Source of the DNA: Candidatus Vecturithrix granuli
GTDB taxonomy: Bacteria; Moduliflexota; Moduliflexia; Moduliflexales; Moduliflexaceae
NCBI GenBank assembly: GCA_000739535.1
Contig: DF820464.1
Coordinates: forward strand, 1 to 64,000
Direction: 5' to 3'
DNA: 64,000 bases
The notes under the pieces are model-generated. The model was not told the DNA's origin, did no database searches, and saw only the letters and a list, made by a program, of their open reading frames with translations. Below, one piece after another: positions 24,705-59,418 of the stretch (position 1 is the first letter of the stretch; the number at the start of each line of letters is the position of its first letter). A program made the position numbers and the translations under genes.

Positions 24705-26618
24705 TTAATTGACATCTTCAAATTCAGCATCAACCACGTCGTCATCTCGTTTTCCGGAACCTGGCTGTGGGCCAGCGCCGGGGCCAGGCTGCGAACTGCC
24801 AGCCTGTTGTTGGGTTTGCTGCCGGTACATGGCTTCAGCCATTTTGTGCGAGGCTTTGGTCAGATCATCTATGGCGGTTTTGATTCTGGCCGTGTCGTTC
24901 GCTTCAATCGCTTCTTTGGTCTGTTTTACCGCGTTTTCAATCGCACTGATGTCGCTTGCCGGGATCTTTTCGCGATTTTCATTCAAAAGTTTTTCCGTCT
25001 GATAAACTAGTGAATCGGCCTGATTCCTTAAATCAATCGCTTCCCGTTTCTTGCGATCTTCATCCGAGTGCACCTCAGCGTCTTTAACCATCTGGTTAAT
25101 TTCATTTTCGGAGAGACCACTCGAAGCAGTAATCGTAATTTGCTGTTCTTTACCGGTACCCAAATCTTTGGCCGAAACATTCACAATCCCGTTGGCGTCG
25201 ATGTCAAAGGTCACTTCAATCTGCGGTACGCCGCGCGGGGCTGGTGGAATCCCAACCAGATGGAATTTGCCGAGGGTACGGTTATCGCGCGCCATTTCGC
25301 GTTCGCCTTGCAATACATGAATTTCCACGCTAGTCTGATTATCGGCCGCAGTGGTAAAAATTTCACTCTTGCGCGTCGGAATAGTGGTGTTGCGCTCGAT
25401 CAGTTTTGTGGTGACACCGCCCAGGGTTTCAATTCCCAAAGACAACGGCGTGACATCAAGCAACAACAGATCTTTCACTTCCCCGCCAAGCACGCCGGCC
25501 TGAATTGCCGCACCAACAGCCACGACTTCATCCGGGTTAACGCCTTTGTGCGGCTCTTTATTAAACATGCGTCGCACCAATTCCTGAACCTTTGGAATAC
25601 GCGTTGACCCGCCGACCAGCACAACTTCATCAATGTCCGATGGCTGCATCCCGGCATCTTTCAGCGCCTTGCGGCAAGGTTCAAGGGTACGCTCAAGCAG
25701 ATCATCAACTAGCTGTTCGAATTTCGCCCGGGTCAACTTCATATTCAAATGTTTTGGCCCGCTTTGATCTGCGGTCACAAAAGGCAGATTAATATCGGTT
25801 TCCGTCAGCGTCGAGAGTTCCATTTTCGCTTTTTCCGCTGCTTCTTTCAAGCGTTGTAACGCCATCCGATCTTTGCTGAGGTCAATACCCTGATCTTTCT
25901 TAAATTCGGCTACCATCCATTCAATAATGCGCTGATCCAGGTTATCTCCGCCGAGATGAGTATCGCCGTTAGTGGATTTCACTTCGACCACGCCTTCGCC
26001 AACTTCCAGAATCGAAATATCAAAGGTACCCCCGCCAAAATCAAACACCGCAATGGTTTCATCTTTTTTCTTATCAAGGCCATAGGCTAAGGCGGCGGCC
26101 GTCGGCTCGTTCACAATCCGTAAGACTTCCAATCCCGCGATTTTTCCGGCGTCTTTCGTCGCCTGACGCTGGCTGTCATTAAAATATGCGGGCACGGTCA
26201 CGACCGCTTTATTGATTTTCTGCCCTAAATATTGTTCGGCGGCATCTCGCATTTTTTGGAGAATCATCGCGGAAATTTCTGGCGGCGAATATTGCTTGCC
26301 TCGCACGTCAACACGCGCATCTCCATTGGGCGCTCGTACCACTTTATAAGGCACGATTTTGATTTCTTCTGCTACTTCATCATGCCGTCGTCCCATAAAC
26401 CGTTTAATCGAAAAGATGGTATTTTCCGGGTTCGTGACGGCCTGGCGTTTTGCGACCTGTCCCACTAAGCGTTCATCGTCTTTGGTAAACGCCACAACCG
26501 AGGGGGTTGTGCGACTGCCTTCAGGGTTCGTGATCACAACAGGATCGCCGCCTTCAATTACGGAAACAACCGAATTTGTCGTTCCAAGATCGATCCCAAT
26601 AATTTTTTCTGCTGCCAT
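24705..26618 (-). CDS. dnaK: Molecular chaperone DnaK (Hsp70)
   Basis: Hsp70 chaperone of 637 residues, full length. It begins with [14 protein letters not shown] (phosphate loop), has the ATPase signatures [10 protein letters not shown] and [12 protein letters not shown], the linker [16 protein letters not shown] and ends with a charged tail ([12 protein letters not shown]) like the family's C-terminal motif. It uses ATP to bind and release unfolded peptides, normally with DnaJ and GrpE; neither gene is nearby. Start ATG 26618 follows a strong AGGAGGG about 12 nt upstream. A good promoter lies about 230 nt upstream. No CIRCE element was found. Confidence 0.98.
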
Positions 26619-27023: not shown

Positions 27024-27252
27024 GTAAAAAAAATGATGTATCATTAATGATATGAGTAGTGTCTTTAAGTCACGACAAGAAAAGAAAGAATAAGAATTTT
27101 CGAGTTTTTGCTGATGAATATCAACGATCGTCGTCCTTTAATACGGTAGTACATAACCAATGTCATTTTGACAGGTTCGTCGTACTCATTTAAGCGATTT
27201 TTCCACCTGAAGGCGGGACAACGAACATATCAAATTCATTGTGGTTACGTCT

Positions 27253-29877
27253 ATGAGAAAATTCACCATTGGTTGGAGTATATTCTGGATTAATATCATC
27301 AGTGGAACCGTGAGCGCCCTCGGGATTTTCGGAGGAATCAAGCTTTTTCACATCGCAACATTTACGCTGGCTCACCTTTTTGCAGCGCTGTTATTTTTTA
27401 CTGGAGTGACGAGTATTGCCCATACGCTCTTTAACGTTCTTGGCATACGTCCGTCATTGCGCAGGCTCTTGTGGATGGCAGACCTGCAACGCCCGGAACC
27501 GACCGCATATACCAGACCACATCTCCACACGCGTGAACTTCATGAACTCGCTAATCTTCTAGAATCAAATAAGAGCTATGTCCGTGAAGTGACCAGTGCA
27601 GGCATTCAGATTCTTGAGCAGGGCGGAGTCCAGACGATTTCTCCGAAATCAGCGACTGATCCACTTGGGATCATGCTCCAACGCTACATCCAGGTCATAA
27701 ATATTTTTGAAGATACCCTTCAACAGGTCATACATGGAAATTTGAGAATTCTATTTCCAAGAGAGGAGGAACTCAAGGTCATCCAATCACTTCGAATGAT
27801 GGTCCTTGAAATCCGACGGGTTATCAAGGATGTCAGGTGTGAAGTGGGGCATATTGTTGGCGTCAGTTCCCAGGTGGCAGCAATGGCTCAACAAGGCTCG
27901 CGTAATGCTGATTTAGAAGACCAGGCGATCGAACATATCGCGCATTCTATTCACGCGGTGGCAGAAAATCTGCGCAAGGTAATGGAAAATATAAGTTTCC
28001 AGATTCGTTCTTTAGATGACACCTTTACTGCGATCGAAGGGATGTTAGCCTCAATTGACGATGTGAGCCACACGGTTCATCAGCTTTCATCAGCCTCGCA
28101 AGAAATGGCGAATTCTGTTGAAGAAATTCACACCTTCACGCAAGAAATTGAACATCATGCGCAATCAGCGGCTGAAATTTCTGGAAATGTCTCTGAACAG
28201 GCTAAAGAAGGATTACATGCTGTGGCTGTTGTCATTGAAGGGATTCAGACCATTAAATCTACCGTTCAAGATGCGGCCGCAACGATTCAGCGTCTGGGGA
28301 AAGAATCGGGTCGAATTGGCGAGGTTCTGGAAGTGATTAATGATGTGGCTGAACAAACGAATTTACTGGCCTTAAATGCCACGATTATTGCTGCTCAGGC
28401 AGGCGAACAAGGTCGAGGGTTTTCGGTCGTGGCGGAAGAAATTAAAGGGTTAGCCGAACGGACAAGATCATCTACCAAAGAGATCGCTGAGATTATTGCA
28501 TCTGTCCAAAACGAGGTCAAGGCGGGGATGAAAGCGATGGAGATCTGTCTTCTTGCTGTGGATGAAGGGGTAGAATTAGCGAATCAGTCAGGCGATGTAC
28601 TCAAGACGATTGTGAGGGGCATTCAAGCTTCACGAAAAATGATTGCGACGATGGCCAGCGCCACCATCACACAAACTGAGAATAGCCAGCAACTCAAGGT
28701 TGTTGTGGAAGAGATGAATAAGCAATTGCTCGATCTTCATACGACCATCAACAAACAAGGCGAAGAAAATTCCCACATGGCTGATCTGACTCGTTCTTTG
28801 CGTCAAATCACTCAGCAAATTGAACAATCTGCCGTGGTACAATCGCAAGAAACTGATGCGATTGTCCAGGCCATTGAACACATCCAACCATTGGTGGCTG
28901 GGAGTTCCAAAATGACGCACCTTTTAGCCCAATCATCCTTTGAACTGGGGAAATTTGAAAGTCATTTAGTGGAAAGCCTCGGACAAATTTTCATATCGCC
29001 TCAATTGCTTCCTCCCGATTTTGATCCTCAGCGTCCGACAGTGGCGTTTCTTCGTCAGGGAACTTTTGCATTTTATGATCTGCTCTCGCAGGGCGTGACA
29101 GAGGCCTTAGCGTCTGAAAATATGCAAGTACTTAGCCTCAGTTCTCAGAATGATATTATCCGTCAGGCCGAAAATGTGAATTGGCTGCTCCGGCAACCCT
29201 GGTTGAAAGCCATCATTATTGGAGGCGTTGATGATCTGACAACCAGCCGTTTGCTACTGCGAGTGCGCGAACGCCATATTCCTTTGGTTGTCGTTGATAC
29301 GCGCATTACAAACGCGGCGATCTCCGTGATCTCAGATAATGAGCGTGGAGGCGAATATGCTGCTGAAGGGCTTGGAGTATGCGTCCCTCCGGGAAGTCCT
29401 GTGCTTGTCTGCGGTTCACGGCATTTAAATTCGTTAAACGAACGCATTACCGGGTTTTTGAGAAAAGCCGAAGCCTATCAGTGGAATGTGATGGAAATTT
29501 TTGTCTCCGTCTATGACAGAGCAATGGCCAAAACAAACATTCTGGATGGCCTCCGGATTGTGTCGAATGTCCGGGGAATGTTTTTGTCAAATGAATCCAT
29601 GATGTTAGCATATCTTGAACTCGTTAAAGAAGGTCGCATTGATCCACGCTCGTTGTACGTCGTAGGATTTGATATGACGCCTGAAATCGCTGAGGCTATT
29701 CTTGAAGAGCACCTCTTGTTTTCTATTGTTCAAGCTCCGCTTGAAATTGGAAGCGCAGCTGTGCGAGAAATTTTGTTCCTGCTTGAGCATCCTGAACAAG
29801 AAAATGAGGAACCCAGAGTAAAGTTGATCCCGGTGATGAAAATGGGGAAACAAGAAATTCTGGCAATGCAAGAATAA
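27253..29877 (+). CDS. Methyl-accepting chemotaxis-like protein fused to a C-terminal LacI/periplasmic-binding-protein domain
   Basis: An 874-residue signalling protein from ATG 27253 (a GTG four codons earlier is possible; no clear ribosome binding site for either). Two membrane helices lie close together (about 8-28 and 34-58), leaving almost no periplasmic domain. A long helical region leads to an MCP signalling core with the hairpin tip INDVAEQTNLLALNATIIAAQAGEQGRGFSVVAEEIKGLAERT, in which Ile and Gln replace the usual Glu and Arg. From about residue 592 a type I binding-protein/LacI-like sensor follows (RPTVAFLRQGTFAFYDLLSQG ... AIIIGGVDDL ... PLVVVDT ... VVGFDMTPEIAEAI). This sensor would be in the cytoplasm, the reverse of usual receptors. 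No che genes are adjacent. Confidence 0.85.
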   Translation: MRKFTIGWSIFWINIISGTVSALGIFGGIKLFHIATFTLAHLFAALLFFTGVTSIAHTLFNVLGIRPSLRRLLWMADLQRPEPTAYTRPHLHTRELHELANLLESNKSYVREVTSAGIQILEQGGVQTISPKSATDPLGIMLQRYIQVINIFEDTLQQVIHGNLRILFPREEELKVIQSLRMMVLEIRRVIKDVRCEVGHIVGVSSQVAAMAQQGSRNADLEDQAIEHIAHSIHAVAENLRKVMENISFQIRSLDDTFTAIEGMLASIDDVSHTVHQLSSASQEMANSVEEIHTFTQEIEHHAQSAAEISGNVSEQAKEGLHAVAVVIEGIQTIKSTVQDAAATIQRLGKESGRIGEVLEVINDVAEQTNLLALNATIIAAQAGEQGRGFSVVAEEIKGLAERTRSSTKEIAEIIASVQNEVKAGMKAMEICLLAVDEGVELANQSGDVLKTIVRGIQASRKMIATMASATITQTENSQQLKVVVEEMNKQLLDLHTTINKQGEENSHMADLTRSLRQITQQIEQSAVVQSQETDAIVQAIEHIQPLVAGSSKMTHLLAQSSFELGKFESHLVESLGQIFISPQLLPPDFDPQRPTVAFLRQGTFAFYDLLSQGVTEALASENMQVLSLSSQNDIIRQAENVNWLLRQPWLKAIIIGGVDDLTTSRLLLRVRERHIPLVVVDTRITNAAISVISDNERGGEYAAEGLGVCVPPGSPVLVCGSRHLNSLNERITGFLRKAEAYQWNVMEIFVSVYDRAMAKTNILDGLRIVSNVRGMFLSNESMMLAYLELVKEGRIDPRSLYVVGFDMTPEIAEAILEEHLLFSIVQAPLEIGSAAVREILFLLEHPEQENEEPRVKLIPVMKMGKQEILAMQE

Positions 29878-29991: not shown

Positions 29992-30507
29992 ATGAGTGAA
30001 ATGACAGATAATCAGATTCAAGGGGGAACATCTCAACAAGGATTTTCCGGGGAGGTTGATTCCGATCTTCTCATTGATGATTTGTCCTATCAGGAAGCCA
30101 AAACCTATGTCATGCAGTTTTTAACTGCAGAGAAAAAAACAGAACGGCTTCTTCAGGAGAAGCAGCAAGCCTTCAATAAGTGGAATGAACGCTTAGCCTA
30201 TGCAGAACAACGCGGGACCCCTGAACAGGTCGAACGTGTCAAACAAGAATTGCACGCCTTGATTCGCGAACGCGATCAATTAATTGCCGAACGAGACGCG
30301 CTGCATCGCAAAAATATCATTTTGAAGGAAAAACTTCAATTAAAAGCCAAAGAAGTAGAGGCTTCCGCGGGTGCTCGTGCAGAACGCCTGCTGACCGACT
30401 TTGAACAACTGGTGAATGTTGACGAATATAAATTACAGGAAGCGACGAAAAATCAGGAAGCCGAAGATGAACTGGCAAAATTGAAAGCCAAACTCAACCA
30501 TCCATAA
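29992..30507 (+). CDS. Coiled-coil protein of unknown function
   Basis: A 171-residue, highly charged protein with no signal peptide or membrane helix. Nearly all of residues 35-165 is heptad-like coiled coil (for example RVKQELHALIRERDQLIAERDALHRKN). PspA-like proteins share this look, but the lengths and motifs do not match well. ATG 29992 has AGGAGGG about 10 nt upstream. The TPR gene begins 11 nt after its stop, so the two are an operon. No function can be assigned. Confidence 0.7.
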   Translation: MSEMTDNQIQGGTSQQGFSGEVDSDLLIDDLSYQEAKTYVMQFLTAEKKTERLLQEKQQAFNKWNERLAYAEQRGTPEQVERVKQELHALIRERDQLIAERDALHRKNIILKEKLQLKAKEVEASAGARAERLLTDFEQLVNVDEYKLQEATKNQEAEDELAKLKAKLNHP

Positions 30508-30518
30508 ACGTATATCCC

Positions 30519-31727
30519 GTGAAAACAGCCCAACAATCGTATAAGTTAAAGGCATATTTTGGTCCTGGCCCCAGCAATAGCGTTCAATGGTTTCGGATGA
30601 TCGGTCTGTTGCTGGCAAGTGTCCTCATCGCAGGAATGTGCATGGCGAATGCCGATGATGGGACGCAACAGGCCATTCTGATGGCTCAGCAAGCCCTGTA
30701 TGAAGGAAATTTTGATCAGGCTTTGACGCGTTTTTTGGCCATCATCCAGAATTATCCTGACGACCCCAAGGGCTATCTCTTTCTGGCATTGACCTATCGT
30801 TGGCTCACGCGGATCGATCCGGGGTCAACTGAATATCAAGAACAATTCGAACGGGCTGTCAGTCGGTCAATCAGAAAAAATCTTTCCTTGATTGAAGAGA
30901 ATCCGAATAATACTGAAGCGACTCTCTATCTGGCAGCCTCGTATGGGTATCGCGCGGAATATTATAATTTTCTGAAGCAGAGTTGGAGCAAAGCCTACGA
31001 TGATGGCGTAAAAATGCAGGAATATTTGGAGAAAGCCAAAAAATTTCCTCATACCACTATTGATATACAATTGGGATATGGGTTGTACAATTATTATGCC
31101 TATCTGTATCGAGAAAAGATTGGGTGGTGGCGTTTTTTGCTGTCATTGCCGAAAGGCGATAAAAAGAAAGGTTTGGAATTGCTGGAAAAGGTCAGGGAAG
31201 AGGGAATCTATGCGAACATTGAAGCCTGGTATTTTTTGATCGAGATTTATAAGGAGGAAAAAGATCCAACATTGCGAGCGCGAGCGCGGACTTTAAGCGA
31301 AGAGCTGCGCCAAAAATATCCTCATAACCCATTTTTCCATACTCTTCTAGCAGGAATTTACCATAAGCAGCACGATTGGCAGCGTTCGATTCAGACGGCG
31401 CGAGAGATCCTCGTTCAGGCGAACACTCAGCGCTATTACAGCGCTTATCTCATCTATCAGGCGAAATATCTGATTGGCGAAAGTTCATTTTTTCTGGGGC
31501 AAAACGATCAGGCCTTGCAGGCTTTTGACGAAATTATTGCATTTCAACCCAGGCAGCCAGCGTATCTGTTGCCCTGGACGCATCTTCGACGCGGCACGAT
31601 TTACAGCTTGAAAGGTCAACAAGAACAGGCAACGGCAGAGTTTCAACTAGTTTTGAAAATGGAAGATGTTCTCCATGTACACGAATTGGCGCGGGGATTA
31701 CTTGAACGACAACAACATCAGAACTAA
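30519..31727 (+). CDS. Exported or membrane-anchored TPR-repeat protein
   Basis: A 402-residue protein starting at GTG 30519; ATG 30597 is an alternative that would begin directly at a signal-like helix (MIGLLLASVLIAGMCMANA). The rest consists of TPR-like hairpins from about residue 50 (LYEGNFDQALTRFLAIIQNYPDDPKGYLFLALTYRW) to the end (FFLGQNDQALQAFDEIIAF, YSLKGQQEQATAEFQLVLKM). It probably binds other envelope proteins. It resembles several TPR proteins in the window and follows the coiled-coil gene by 11 nt. Confidence 0.72.
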   Translation: MKTAQQSYKLKAYFGPGPSNSVQWFRMIGLLLASVLIAGMCMANADDGTQQAILMAQQALYEGNFDQALTRFLAIIQNYPDDPKGYLFLALTYRWLTRIDPGSTEYQEQFERAVSRSIRKNLSLIEENPNNTEATLYLAASYGYRAEYYNFLKQSWSKAYDDGVKMQEYLEKAKKFPHTTIDIQLGYGLYNYYAYLYREKIGWWRFLLSLPKGDKKKGLELLEKVREEGIYANIEAWYFLIEIYKEEKDPTLRARARTLSEELRQKYPHNPFFHTLLAGIYHKQHDWQRSIQTAREILVQANTQRYYSAYLIYQAKYLIGESSFFLGQNDQALQAFDEIIAFQPRQPAYLLPWTHLRRGTIYSLKGQQEQATAEFQLVLKMEDVLHVHELARGLLERQQHQN

Positions 31728-57171: not shown

Positions 57172-59418
57172 TTATGGAACAAGACTTTTTATTGTGTCAA
57201 TGAAACTTTTTTGCTCAAAATCCCCTTTCGTGATATAGGCCTTCGCTCCGACCCGCATTCCGCGCATTTTATCAGATTCTCGCTCTAATGACGTAACGAT
57301 CACAACGGGAATATCAGCATAATGAGGAAGTTCTCGTATCTGCTCTACGAATGTAAATCCATCCATACGCGGCATCTCAATGTCAGTGACGATCAGATCA
57401 TAAGATCGGCGTTCAAGCTGTTCAAGAGCTTGGATGCCATCATGAACGACATCGACCTGATAGCCATAGGCCTGTAAAATCTGTTTTTCAATGTCACCGG
57501 TATTGGCTGAATCATCTACAATAAGAATGTTCGAGGGAAGGGGTGTTTGAACGGTTGTTTGAGATTTTTGAGCGTCCACAGTGGCATGTTTAACCAGCTC
57601 AACAATTTCAGGAACGTGTAAAATCAAAATAATCGTGTTATCACTTGAAATCGTTGCTCCGGCAATGGTTTTCGCATGTTGGAGATGAGGGGGCAATTGT
57701 TTCACCACAACATCTTGTTCATCAAGGATTTCATCAACAATCAGCCCAACTCGTTTTCCATTGGCGTGAACAATGACGATAAAAGATTGTTTACCCTCCT
57801 TCATAGCGCCGTGTTTTAGACCAAGCACATTTCCAAGCGCAACAATATATATAATCTGATTACGTAAACGGATGGCCTCATGTCCTACCACCTGAATGAT
57901 TTCGTGTGCGGCGACTTGCAGCGTTTCCTGGATCGCGTTCATTGGAATGGCAAACAATTTTTGTCCTGAAGAAATGATCAGACTGCGAATCGTGGTAAGC
58001 GTGGCGGGAAGGGTCAAAATACAAGATGTGCCTTTTCCTGCTTGAGATATGAGATCTATCCCTCCCTTTAATTGCTCAAGACTGACTTTGACGATATCCA
58101 TGCCCATGCCTCGTCCTGAAATATCGGTGATCATGTCGCTCGTGCTCAAACGTGGTAAAAATACCAGATCGATCAATTCCTCAGGCTTGAGAGTTTGCAC
58201 TTTCTCTTCAGAAAGCATTCCGCGCTGAATCGCACGTTGTTTCAATTTTTCTACCTGGATACCTCTCCCATCATCGGTAATTTCAATTTTGATGCGGCCG
58301 CTGCGCTGAGAAGCGGCAATGCTGATGAGTCCTGTCTGGGATTTACCCAGAGCGATCCGTTCGTCAGGAGTCTCGATGCCATGATCAATGCAGTTACGGA
58401 GAATATGGATGAAGGGTGCGTTTAAACATTCAATGATTTTTTTGTCGAGCATGGTGTCTTCCCCGGAAATTCGCAGATCAACGCTTTTTTGGAAATACCT
58501 GGCCATATCGCGTATTGCGCGAGGGAATGTATCAAAAAGGACTGAAAGGGGCAGCATGCGCATGGTGAGTACATCTTCGTACAATTCATTGATGAGGATA
58601 TTCATCATGGCCAGTTCATCACGGTTCTCTCTAAATGCCTGCTCAATACCTTTTAATACAAGAAGGCTTTGTTGAAGCATTTCCTGCTTTCGATCATCAG
58701 AAATCGCATGTCCCTGAAACCATTGATGTAAATGATTCACATGTTTTCGAGCTAGACGTTGCAGGTCTCTCAGGGCTGTCAGCGTACGCTCTGAACGTTT
58801 ATGACTTACCGCCATTTCTCCGACAAGGCGCACGGCATTATCCAGATGTTGAACATCAACGCGGATGGTTTCTTGAATTTTGGGCTTTAGTCCCGGTTTC
58901 TCGGCATACATTTCTTGATGGGGAAGCGCCTCGCCTTCAGACAAAATTTTTCTCGCATACGTTTCTTGATGAAACGGAGCTTCATCCTCAACGTGGGGGC
59001 GATTCAATTGGGTGATCCTGAAAGCAATCTTTTCCCCATGAAGTGCTGCATCGAAAACCTCGTTCATGTTTTGGATTTCTATCCTATCCTCAGCATGGTG
59101 AAGGATGGCATCAATGCCCTGACTGATCAAATCTACCCCTTGAAAAAGCAGTTCAAGCAGATCATCGTTGAATTTGAGATGTCCGTCTTGCAAGGAAATT
59201 AGCAGATCTTCCATTTTATGCGCGAGTTGGCTGACATTCTGAAAACGCATAATTTTTGAAGACCCTTTCAACGTATGCGTCACCCGCAGAATATCTTTCA
59301 GGATTTCATGGTTTTGCGGGTCTTTTTCCAGGCGAACCAGTCCATCGTTGAGTTTTTGTACCAATTCAGCGGCTTCCTGTGCAAATTTTCCGATAAATTG
59401 CGAACGATCAAAATTCAT
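57172..59418 (-). CDS. CheA-type hybrid kinase with C-terminal receiver (Hpt-HATPase-CheW-REC)
   Basis: A 748-residue chemotaxis-type kinase. The Hpt domain carries His48 (VTHTLKGSSKIM), a dimerisation helical region spans about 185-300, HATPase motifs follow (FIHILRNCIDHGIETPDERIALGK; TDDGRGI; GRGMGMDIVK), then a CheW-like domain (about 470-600) and a receiver with Asp679 in VTDIEMPRMDGF. A CheA carrying its own receiver is typical of non-flagellar chemosensory systems such as type IV pilus or exopolysaccharide control. No CheY, CheR, CheB or separate CheW gene is adjacent. Confidence 0.93.
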   Translation of the reverse strand: MNFDRSQFIGKFAQEAAELVQKLNDGLVRLEKDPQNHEILKDILRVTHTLKGSSKIMRFQNVSQLAHKMEDLLISLQDGHLKFNDDLLELLFQGVDLISQGIDAILHHAEDRIEIQNMNEVFDAALHGEKIAFRITQLNRPHVEDEAPFHQETYARKILSEGEALPHQEMYAEKPGLKPKIQETIRVDVQHLDNAVRLVGEMAVSHKRSERTLTALRDLQRLARKHVNHLHQWFQGHAISDDRKQEMLQQSLLVLKGIEQAFRENRDELAMMNILINELYEDVLTMRMLPLSVLFDTFPRAIRDMARYFQKSVDLRISGEDTMLDKKIIECLNAPFIHILRNCIDHGIETPDERIALGKSQTGLISIAASQRSGRIKIEITDDGRGIQVEKLKQRAIQRGMLSEEKVQTLKPEELIDLVFLPRLSTSDMITDISGRGMGMDIVKVSLEQLKGGIDLISQAGKGTSCILTLPATLTTIRSLIISSGQKLFAIPMNAIQETLQVAAHEIIQVVGHEAIRLRNQIIYIVALGNVLGLKHGAMKEGKQSFIVIVHANGKRVGLIVDEILDEQDVVVKQLPPHLQHAKTIAGATISSDNTIILILHVPEIVELVKHATVDAQKSQTTVQTPLPSNILIVDDSANTGDIEKQILQAYGYQVDVVHDGIQALEQLERRSYDLIVTDIEMPRMDGFTFVEQIRELPHYADIPVVIVTSLERESDKMRGMRVGAKAYITKGDFEQKSFIDTIKSLVP

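Follow-up and report, generated by a model that had tools for sequence, protein, structure and literature searches.

A gene of Candidatus Vecturithrix granuli joins an MCP to a ribose-type binding-protein domain placed after the signalling hairpin, and its product is likely to be a membrane-anchored chemoreceptor sensing a sugar or sugar metabolite inside the cell. The gene lies in a window of 64,000 nucleotides, the whole stretch of DNA that was analysed. The source genome (8.38 Mb, 21 contigs, about 67 MCP frames) belongs to the KSB3/Candidatus Moduliflexota lineage, a phylum group with four genomes in the collection. The receptor comprises the following parts:

27253..29877 (+): MCP-PBP fusion receptor, 874 aa in a single frame, with collinear homologues
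27268..27432 (+): membrane hairpin, TM1 at about residues 6-29 and TM2 at about 36-60, with about six residues between
27433..27912 (+): HAMP-like linker, residues 61-220, recognised by eye without a Pfam HAMP match and fast-evolving
27913..28989 (+): antiparallel coiled-coil MCP hairpin, residues 221-579, with the best Pfam MCPsignal stretch at 28255-28722
28348..28428 (+): hairpin tip, residues 366-392, AEQTNLLALNATIIAAQAGEQGRGFSV, carrying I379 and Q382
29038..29802 (+): type I periplasmic-binding-protein-like domain, residues 596-850, from Pfam and the alignment to RbsB

A search of the receptor frame for stops or frameshifts found none; translation might begin slightly earlier, at the in-frame GTG at position 27241. 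Pfam placed MCPsignal (PF00015) at residues 335-490 (138.8 bits, E = 2.1e-40) and Peripla_BP_4 at residues 606-843 (83.7 bits, E = 2e-23). Each score exceeds its curated cut-off, which for MCPsignal is 34.6 bits. The C-terminal domain is assigned to Peripla_BP_4, and no Pfam match to a CZB domain or a LacI-type helix-turn-helix was obtained in the receptor. After TM2 a stretch looks HAMP-like by eye, a Pfam HAMP match being absent in the fusions and present in eight of the nine unfused siblings tested. The methylation-site consensus had no strict match and two relaxed ones, at residues 279 and 416.

The same build recurs in two paralogues, G000:C14:334576-337179 (40% identity over residues 1-863) and G000:C19:351737-354052 (32% identity), and in two relatives of 879 and 908 aa from G001, a genome that shares the family but belongs to a different genus. 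All five fusions are collinear end to end, with MCPsignal and Peripla_BP_4 detected by Pfam in each, and their C-terminal alignment of 321 columns contains 36 invariant positions. The order of two membrane helices, MCP core and binding-protein domain, proposed in a first-pass annotation of the window, was borne out by Pfam, by hydropathy and by the same order in relatives from two genera.

The hydropathy profile of the receptor peaks at residues 10-28 and 31-49, within the first 65 residues. Past the hairpin no peak reaches 1.4, the highest later one (1.37) being a core strand of the binding domain. The ligand domain that a canonical MCP carries outside the cell between TM1 and TM2 is missing, and only about six residues lie there, in agreement with the earlier reading of two close helices with almost no outside domain. 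Since soluble and loop-less MCPs exist, the fusion stays within the MCP family at large as a non-canonical member. The positive N-terminus and R66, R70 and R71 after TM2, a charge pattern read from the sequence, suggest that both termini lie inside. An MCP hairpin functions only in the cytoplasm, the site of CheA and CheW. Because the hairpin needs these partners and no membrane segment intervenes between residues 61 and 874, the C-terminal binding domain must be cytoplasmic, a placement that combines established knowledge with the sequence. Export to the periplasm, a feature of ABC-transporter solute-binding proteins (SBPs), is accordingly not seen in a domain that follows a cytoplasmic hairpin without a later membrane segment. 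The cytoplasmic side assumed in the first pass is thus supported by hydropathy.

Two explanations would undo this reading of the protein. The first-pass annotation had itself named a frameshift or assembly join at about position 29000 as an objection; none was found, and it is excluded because all five fusions align end to end with both domains present by Pfam. A contamination estimate of 10.75% for the source genome speaks for a fusion created by frameshift, chimeric assembly or a contaminant, but the join recurs without stops in four full-length collinear homologues, including one in the independent KSB3 assembly L069 (PDSJ01000018.1; estimated contamination 3%), and the chance of such an artefact appears negligible. 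An unusual receptor topology with the binding domain outside the cell is very improbable as well. It would suit a Peripla_BP_4 family that is normally periplasmic, and permease-SBP fusions with an exported C-terminal SBP do occur (L080, L141). Against it stand the contact that the hairpin must make with cytoplasmic CheA and CheW, the lack of a membrane segment in residues 61-874 and the agreement of four of the five other fusions, which by the same hydropathy test are likewise without a membrane segment after the hairpin. The fusion on C14 showed a single marginal peak (1.93), which falls not between the domains but in the binding domain's first strand.

The fusion tip reads QTNLLALNA..IAAQAGEQGRGF, and its CheA/CheW-contacting core is invariant across the five homologues. 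I379 and Q382 of the window receptor correspond to E385 and R388 of Tsr. Tips were read for 29 of the roughly 67 MCPs of the genome: 17 carry Ile with Gln, His or Lys at these two positions and 12 carry Glu with Arg or Lys. The Ile and Gln noticed in the first pass are therefore real but a mark of a class of MCPs and not peculiar to this receptor; a special meaning was ruled out, as the trait is common to that class.

The binding domain may have replaced an outside sensor more than once. A tree of MCP cores grouped the five fusions as a single clade within the Ile/Gln class (SH-aLRT 81), and in a tree of binding domains the five fused domains again formed one clade (SH-aLRT 99), apart from the SBPs sampled in the source and other genomes. 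A sixth fusion, designated type C, was found elsewhere in the genome:

G000:C19:711692-713854 (L068:7693-9858): type C fusion, 721 aa, with a Glu/Arg tip

It shares the order TM-TM-MCP-Peripla_BP_4 with the window fusion and differs from it in MCP class, in binding-protein branch and, as it appears, in origin. In its MCP half it shares 58% identity with an unfused MCP, and in its binding half 34% with a free-standing SBP that the same genome encodes; it falls outside the five-fusion clade in both trees, with its MCP core in the Glu/Arg class. Given this different class, different branch and off-clade position, the MCP-PBP fusion appears to have at least two origins in this genome. The clade supports come from quick trees in which the type C branch is long, and the class split is also backed by the tip residues.

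Where the frame of an unfused Ile/Gln-class MCP is complete, the protein stops 206-244 aa past the tip. Most of these MCPs have an outside stretch of about 70-320 aa between the helices and, behind it, a HAMP that Pfam recognises; a few gave just one helix in a simple hydropathy test. The five fusions extend about 500 aa beyond the tip and have no outside stretch, which argues that the sensor was exchanged and not merely added. In the type C fusion 457 aa follow the tip, compared with 145 in most of its siblings. The hairpin arms measure about 190 residues on each side of the tip, and by this arithmetic arms of equal length would return the C-terminal domain to the hairpin base, beside the membrane.

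Of the solved structures, Escherichia coli RbsB gave the best match to the family profile of the binding domain (E = 3.6e-28, over residues 3-252), and the solved structures nearest to the domain are ribose-binding proteins. The earlier description of the domain as LacI- or PBP-like was thus right as to the PBP-like assignment by Pfam, while the nearer relatives are binding proteins of the ribose type and not LacI repressors. In RbsB we take F15, D89, R141, D215, Q235, N190, N13, F164 and R90 to be the ligand contacts. The equivalents of F15, D89, R141, D215 and Q235 are invariant in the five fusions and that of N190 is present in four; N13 and F164 are lost in all, and R90 is kept in two of the five only. 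In the aligned positions the window copy retains F607, D682, R731, N780, D807 and Q827. Between genera, the type B fusions are 56% identical in the binding domain and 37% in the MCP part, and this better conservation of the binding domain argues for a kept sensor function. In a published census, Peripla_BP_4 was assigned to xylose, rhamnose and ribose (PMC9602780).

The structure prediction suggested in the first pass was run for the domain alone and for the whole protein, each with an input alignment of two sequences. The domain model (pLDDT 68) ordered its strands and helices correctly, and its single lobes gave good binding-protein matches (7qsq, Z 12.5, rmsd 2.9 over 119 residues). Against RbsB, however, the two lobes were misplaced (TM about 0.27, rmsd 16-18), and Foldseek returned strong E-values at a TM of about 0.27. 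The model agrees with a binding protein in strand order and single lobes, but not in the placement of the two lobes, and was set aside as proof of the fold. The whole-protein AF2 model (pLDDT 47) was too weak to place the domain and gives only a run of secondary structure, at low confidence: helices span residues 2-27 and 35-64, the coiled coil reaches residue 579, and beta and alpha elements alternate from 596 onwards.

The neighbours of the fusion gene within the window are:

24705..26618 (-): dnaK, divergent, 635 bp away, identified by translation
29992..31727 (+): a coiled-coil protein (29992-30507) and then a TPR protein (30519-31727), downstream of the fusion
57172..59418 (-): CheA-like hybrid kinase, Hpt - HATPase_c - CheW - receiver, 27 kb downstream

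Coordinates and translations confirmed the divergent dnaK and the downstream coiled-coil/TPR pair. The statement that chemotaxis genes are lacking beside the receptor holds for the adjoining genes, but not for the surroundings at large, given the CheA-like kinase in the window and 22 CheW-domain hits genome-wide, many of them in long CheA-like frames and one in the window. The CheA-like kinase is flanked on both sides by kinases with PAS or GAF and receiver domains.

Sugar genes are found beside other fusions. The C14 paralogue is preceded by SBP - permease - permease - fucose/arabinose-type isomerase - araD. In G001 its relative likewise lies behind araD, and two FGGY sugar kinases are close by. 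The type C fusion lies 22 bp behind SBP - permease - permease, and an FGGY kinase is divergent to it. No sugar genes adjoin the window copy, which counts against a sugar-reading receptor, as does the Thr that it carries at the position of RbsB R90. The family-wide loss of the N13 and F164 contacts, the relaxed methylation-site matches, the missing Pfam HAMP match and the poor structure models weigh on the same side. The type B fusion has an FHA-sigma54 activator directly upstream in both genera (L067:9360-10682, L065:7897-9234), and the two are a possible regulatory pair. A separate family of ABC_tran - PAS_4 - HisKA - HATPase_c fusions, with a sugar-type ABC ATPase, has six members in the source genome and three in G001, several of them near Peripla_BP_4 genes:

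L064:8911-10764 (-): ABC_tran - PAS_4 - HisKA - HATPase_c fusion
G000:C19:815455-817275, C21:1035529-1037334, C8:170285-172111, C10:81002-82804, C8:164134-165912, C8:37870-39642: ABC_tran-PAS-kinase copies

A working scheme can be proposed for the receptor. The two membrane helices would anchor the MCP hairpin by its base to the inner membrane, and the C-terminal arm would return to this base, where the ribose-type binding domain would hang in the cytoplasm. An imported sugar or its metabolite would close the two lobes, and the closure would shift or twist the last helices of the hairpin. The altered hairpin would change the activity of CheA bound at the tip and thereby gliding or another process governed by CheA. 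We infer that a sugar is bound, that the C-terminal helix carries the signal and that the output is coupled to gliding; on this scheme the receptors would probably guide the cell by the sugar it has already imported.

The binding domain might instead have lost small-molecule binding and serve as a docking or oligomerisation module, for a protein partner such as a sugar kinase or a transporter ATPase or for array spacing. The contacts lost relative to RbsB (N13 and F164 in all fusions, R90 in three of the five) would fit such a role, and the AF2 model leaves the pocket unsettled. The invariance of D89, R141, D215 and Q235 among domains that are only 27-56% identical would be unexpected if binding had been lost, though, and two fused genes lie within clusters for sugar uptake or catabolism, so that we regard a docking module as improbable. 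A somewhat more serious, though still doubtful, alternative concerns the output: through one of many CheA systems, the receptor could act on pili, filament growth or gene expression and not on taxis. The 22 CheW-domain hits with their many long CheA-like frames would leave room for this, the type B fusion adjoins the FHA-sigma54 regulator in both genera, and KSB3 genomes are without flagella (PMC4312070). On the other side, KSB3 filaments were seen gliding when a sugar gradient was applied (PMC4312070). A taxis receptor for internal sugar remains the reading that we prefer.

The family profile was searched against 385 genomes across the domain, scoring the best four candidates per genome, and full-length matches came from two KSB3 genomes only; distant fusions may be missed because of this restriction to four candidates. 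A type A profile search gave the KSB3 relative L069 (PDSJ01000018.1) as sole match among the genome contigs, and a search of these contigs with the whole protein gave none. No MCP-PBP fusion was detected in 146 sampled genomes of one other phylum, and viral contigs yielded no match to the fusion. Among 72,556 plasmids none of the best matches was taken as a true fusion. In a Vibrio plasmid (L108:4903-7671) MCP and rbsB are separate genes, rbsB following 15 bp later; the match was rejected, and the arrangement is a possible pre-fusion state. The match in an Aeromonas caviae plasmid (L109) was a frame running by chance through a HEPN-like start, a piece of an MCP and a lipoprotein SBP, and a two-piece unannotated match in a Rhizobium plasmid (L110) was not counted. 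Long frames from other phyla with a matching C-terminal domain were permease-SBP fusions in the cases opened (L080, L141), and a frame of 607 aa in G360 was left out. In the parts of the literature that were seen, including papers naming both Pfam families, no MCP with a C-terminal binding-protein domain was found. The order TM-TM-MCP-PBP is thus present in relatives of two KSB3 genera, with no case accepted beyond KSB3. The novelty claimed in the first pass survives these genome, plasmid and literature searches, within which the order is new, although this is no global proof and C-terminal cytoplasmic sensors of chemoreceptors are already known.

Separate binding proteins work with several classical receptors, Trg with RbsB or MglB and Tar with MalE. 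In these systems, as is proposed for the fusion, a binding-protein fold recognises the sugar and is coupled to an MCP, but it is free in the periplasm and docks on an outside domain, whereas in the window fusion it is cytoplasmic, covalently attached and located behind the hairpin. Binding-protein-like sensors of the cytoplasm are also known in LacI/GalR repressors and E. coli XylR. They sense sugar inside the cell with a type I fold, as the fusion is proposed to do, but their output is DNA binding, whereas the fusion has no helix-turn-helix and is closer to the ribose SBPs (Peripla_BP_4). As in the fusion, the ligand domain of Helicobacter pylori TlpD follows the hairpin and is cytoplasmic, and it packs at the base of the coiled coil and acts back on the hairpin, as is proposed for the fusion; unlike the fusion with its membrane hairpin and two-lobed sugar-binding fold, TlpD is soluble and carries a zinc-binding helical CZB domain (PMC12871147).

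We lean, with little more than even confidence, towards a class of chemoreceptors that read internal sugar with a transport-type binding protein at the cytoplasmic end of the hairpin, arose at least twice in one lineage, occur in sugar clusters and let taxis follow import. Chemoreceptors are usually pictured as readers of the outside, while metabolic state is held to be the business of sensors for redox or energy. If the proposal is true, a nutrient-specific binding fold on the inside would let the cell compare uptake with its surroundings, a direct and testable case of taxis towards an imported nutrient. With two apparently independent fusions and relatives that keep the outside sensor, the exchange of the sensor side would be open to study. 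The receptors may also offer a starting point for understanding how sugar sets KSB3 filaments gliding; these filaments cause bulking in anaerobic reactors.
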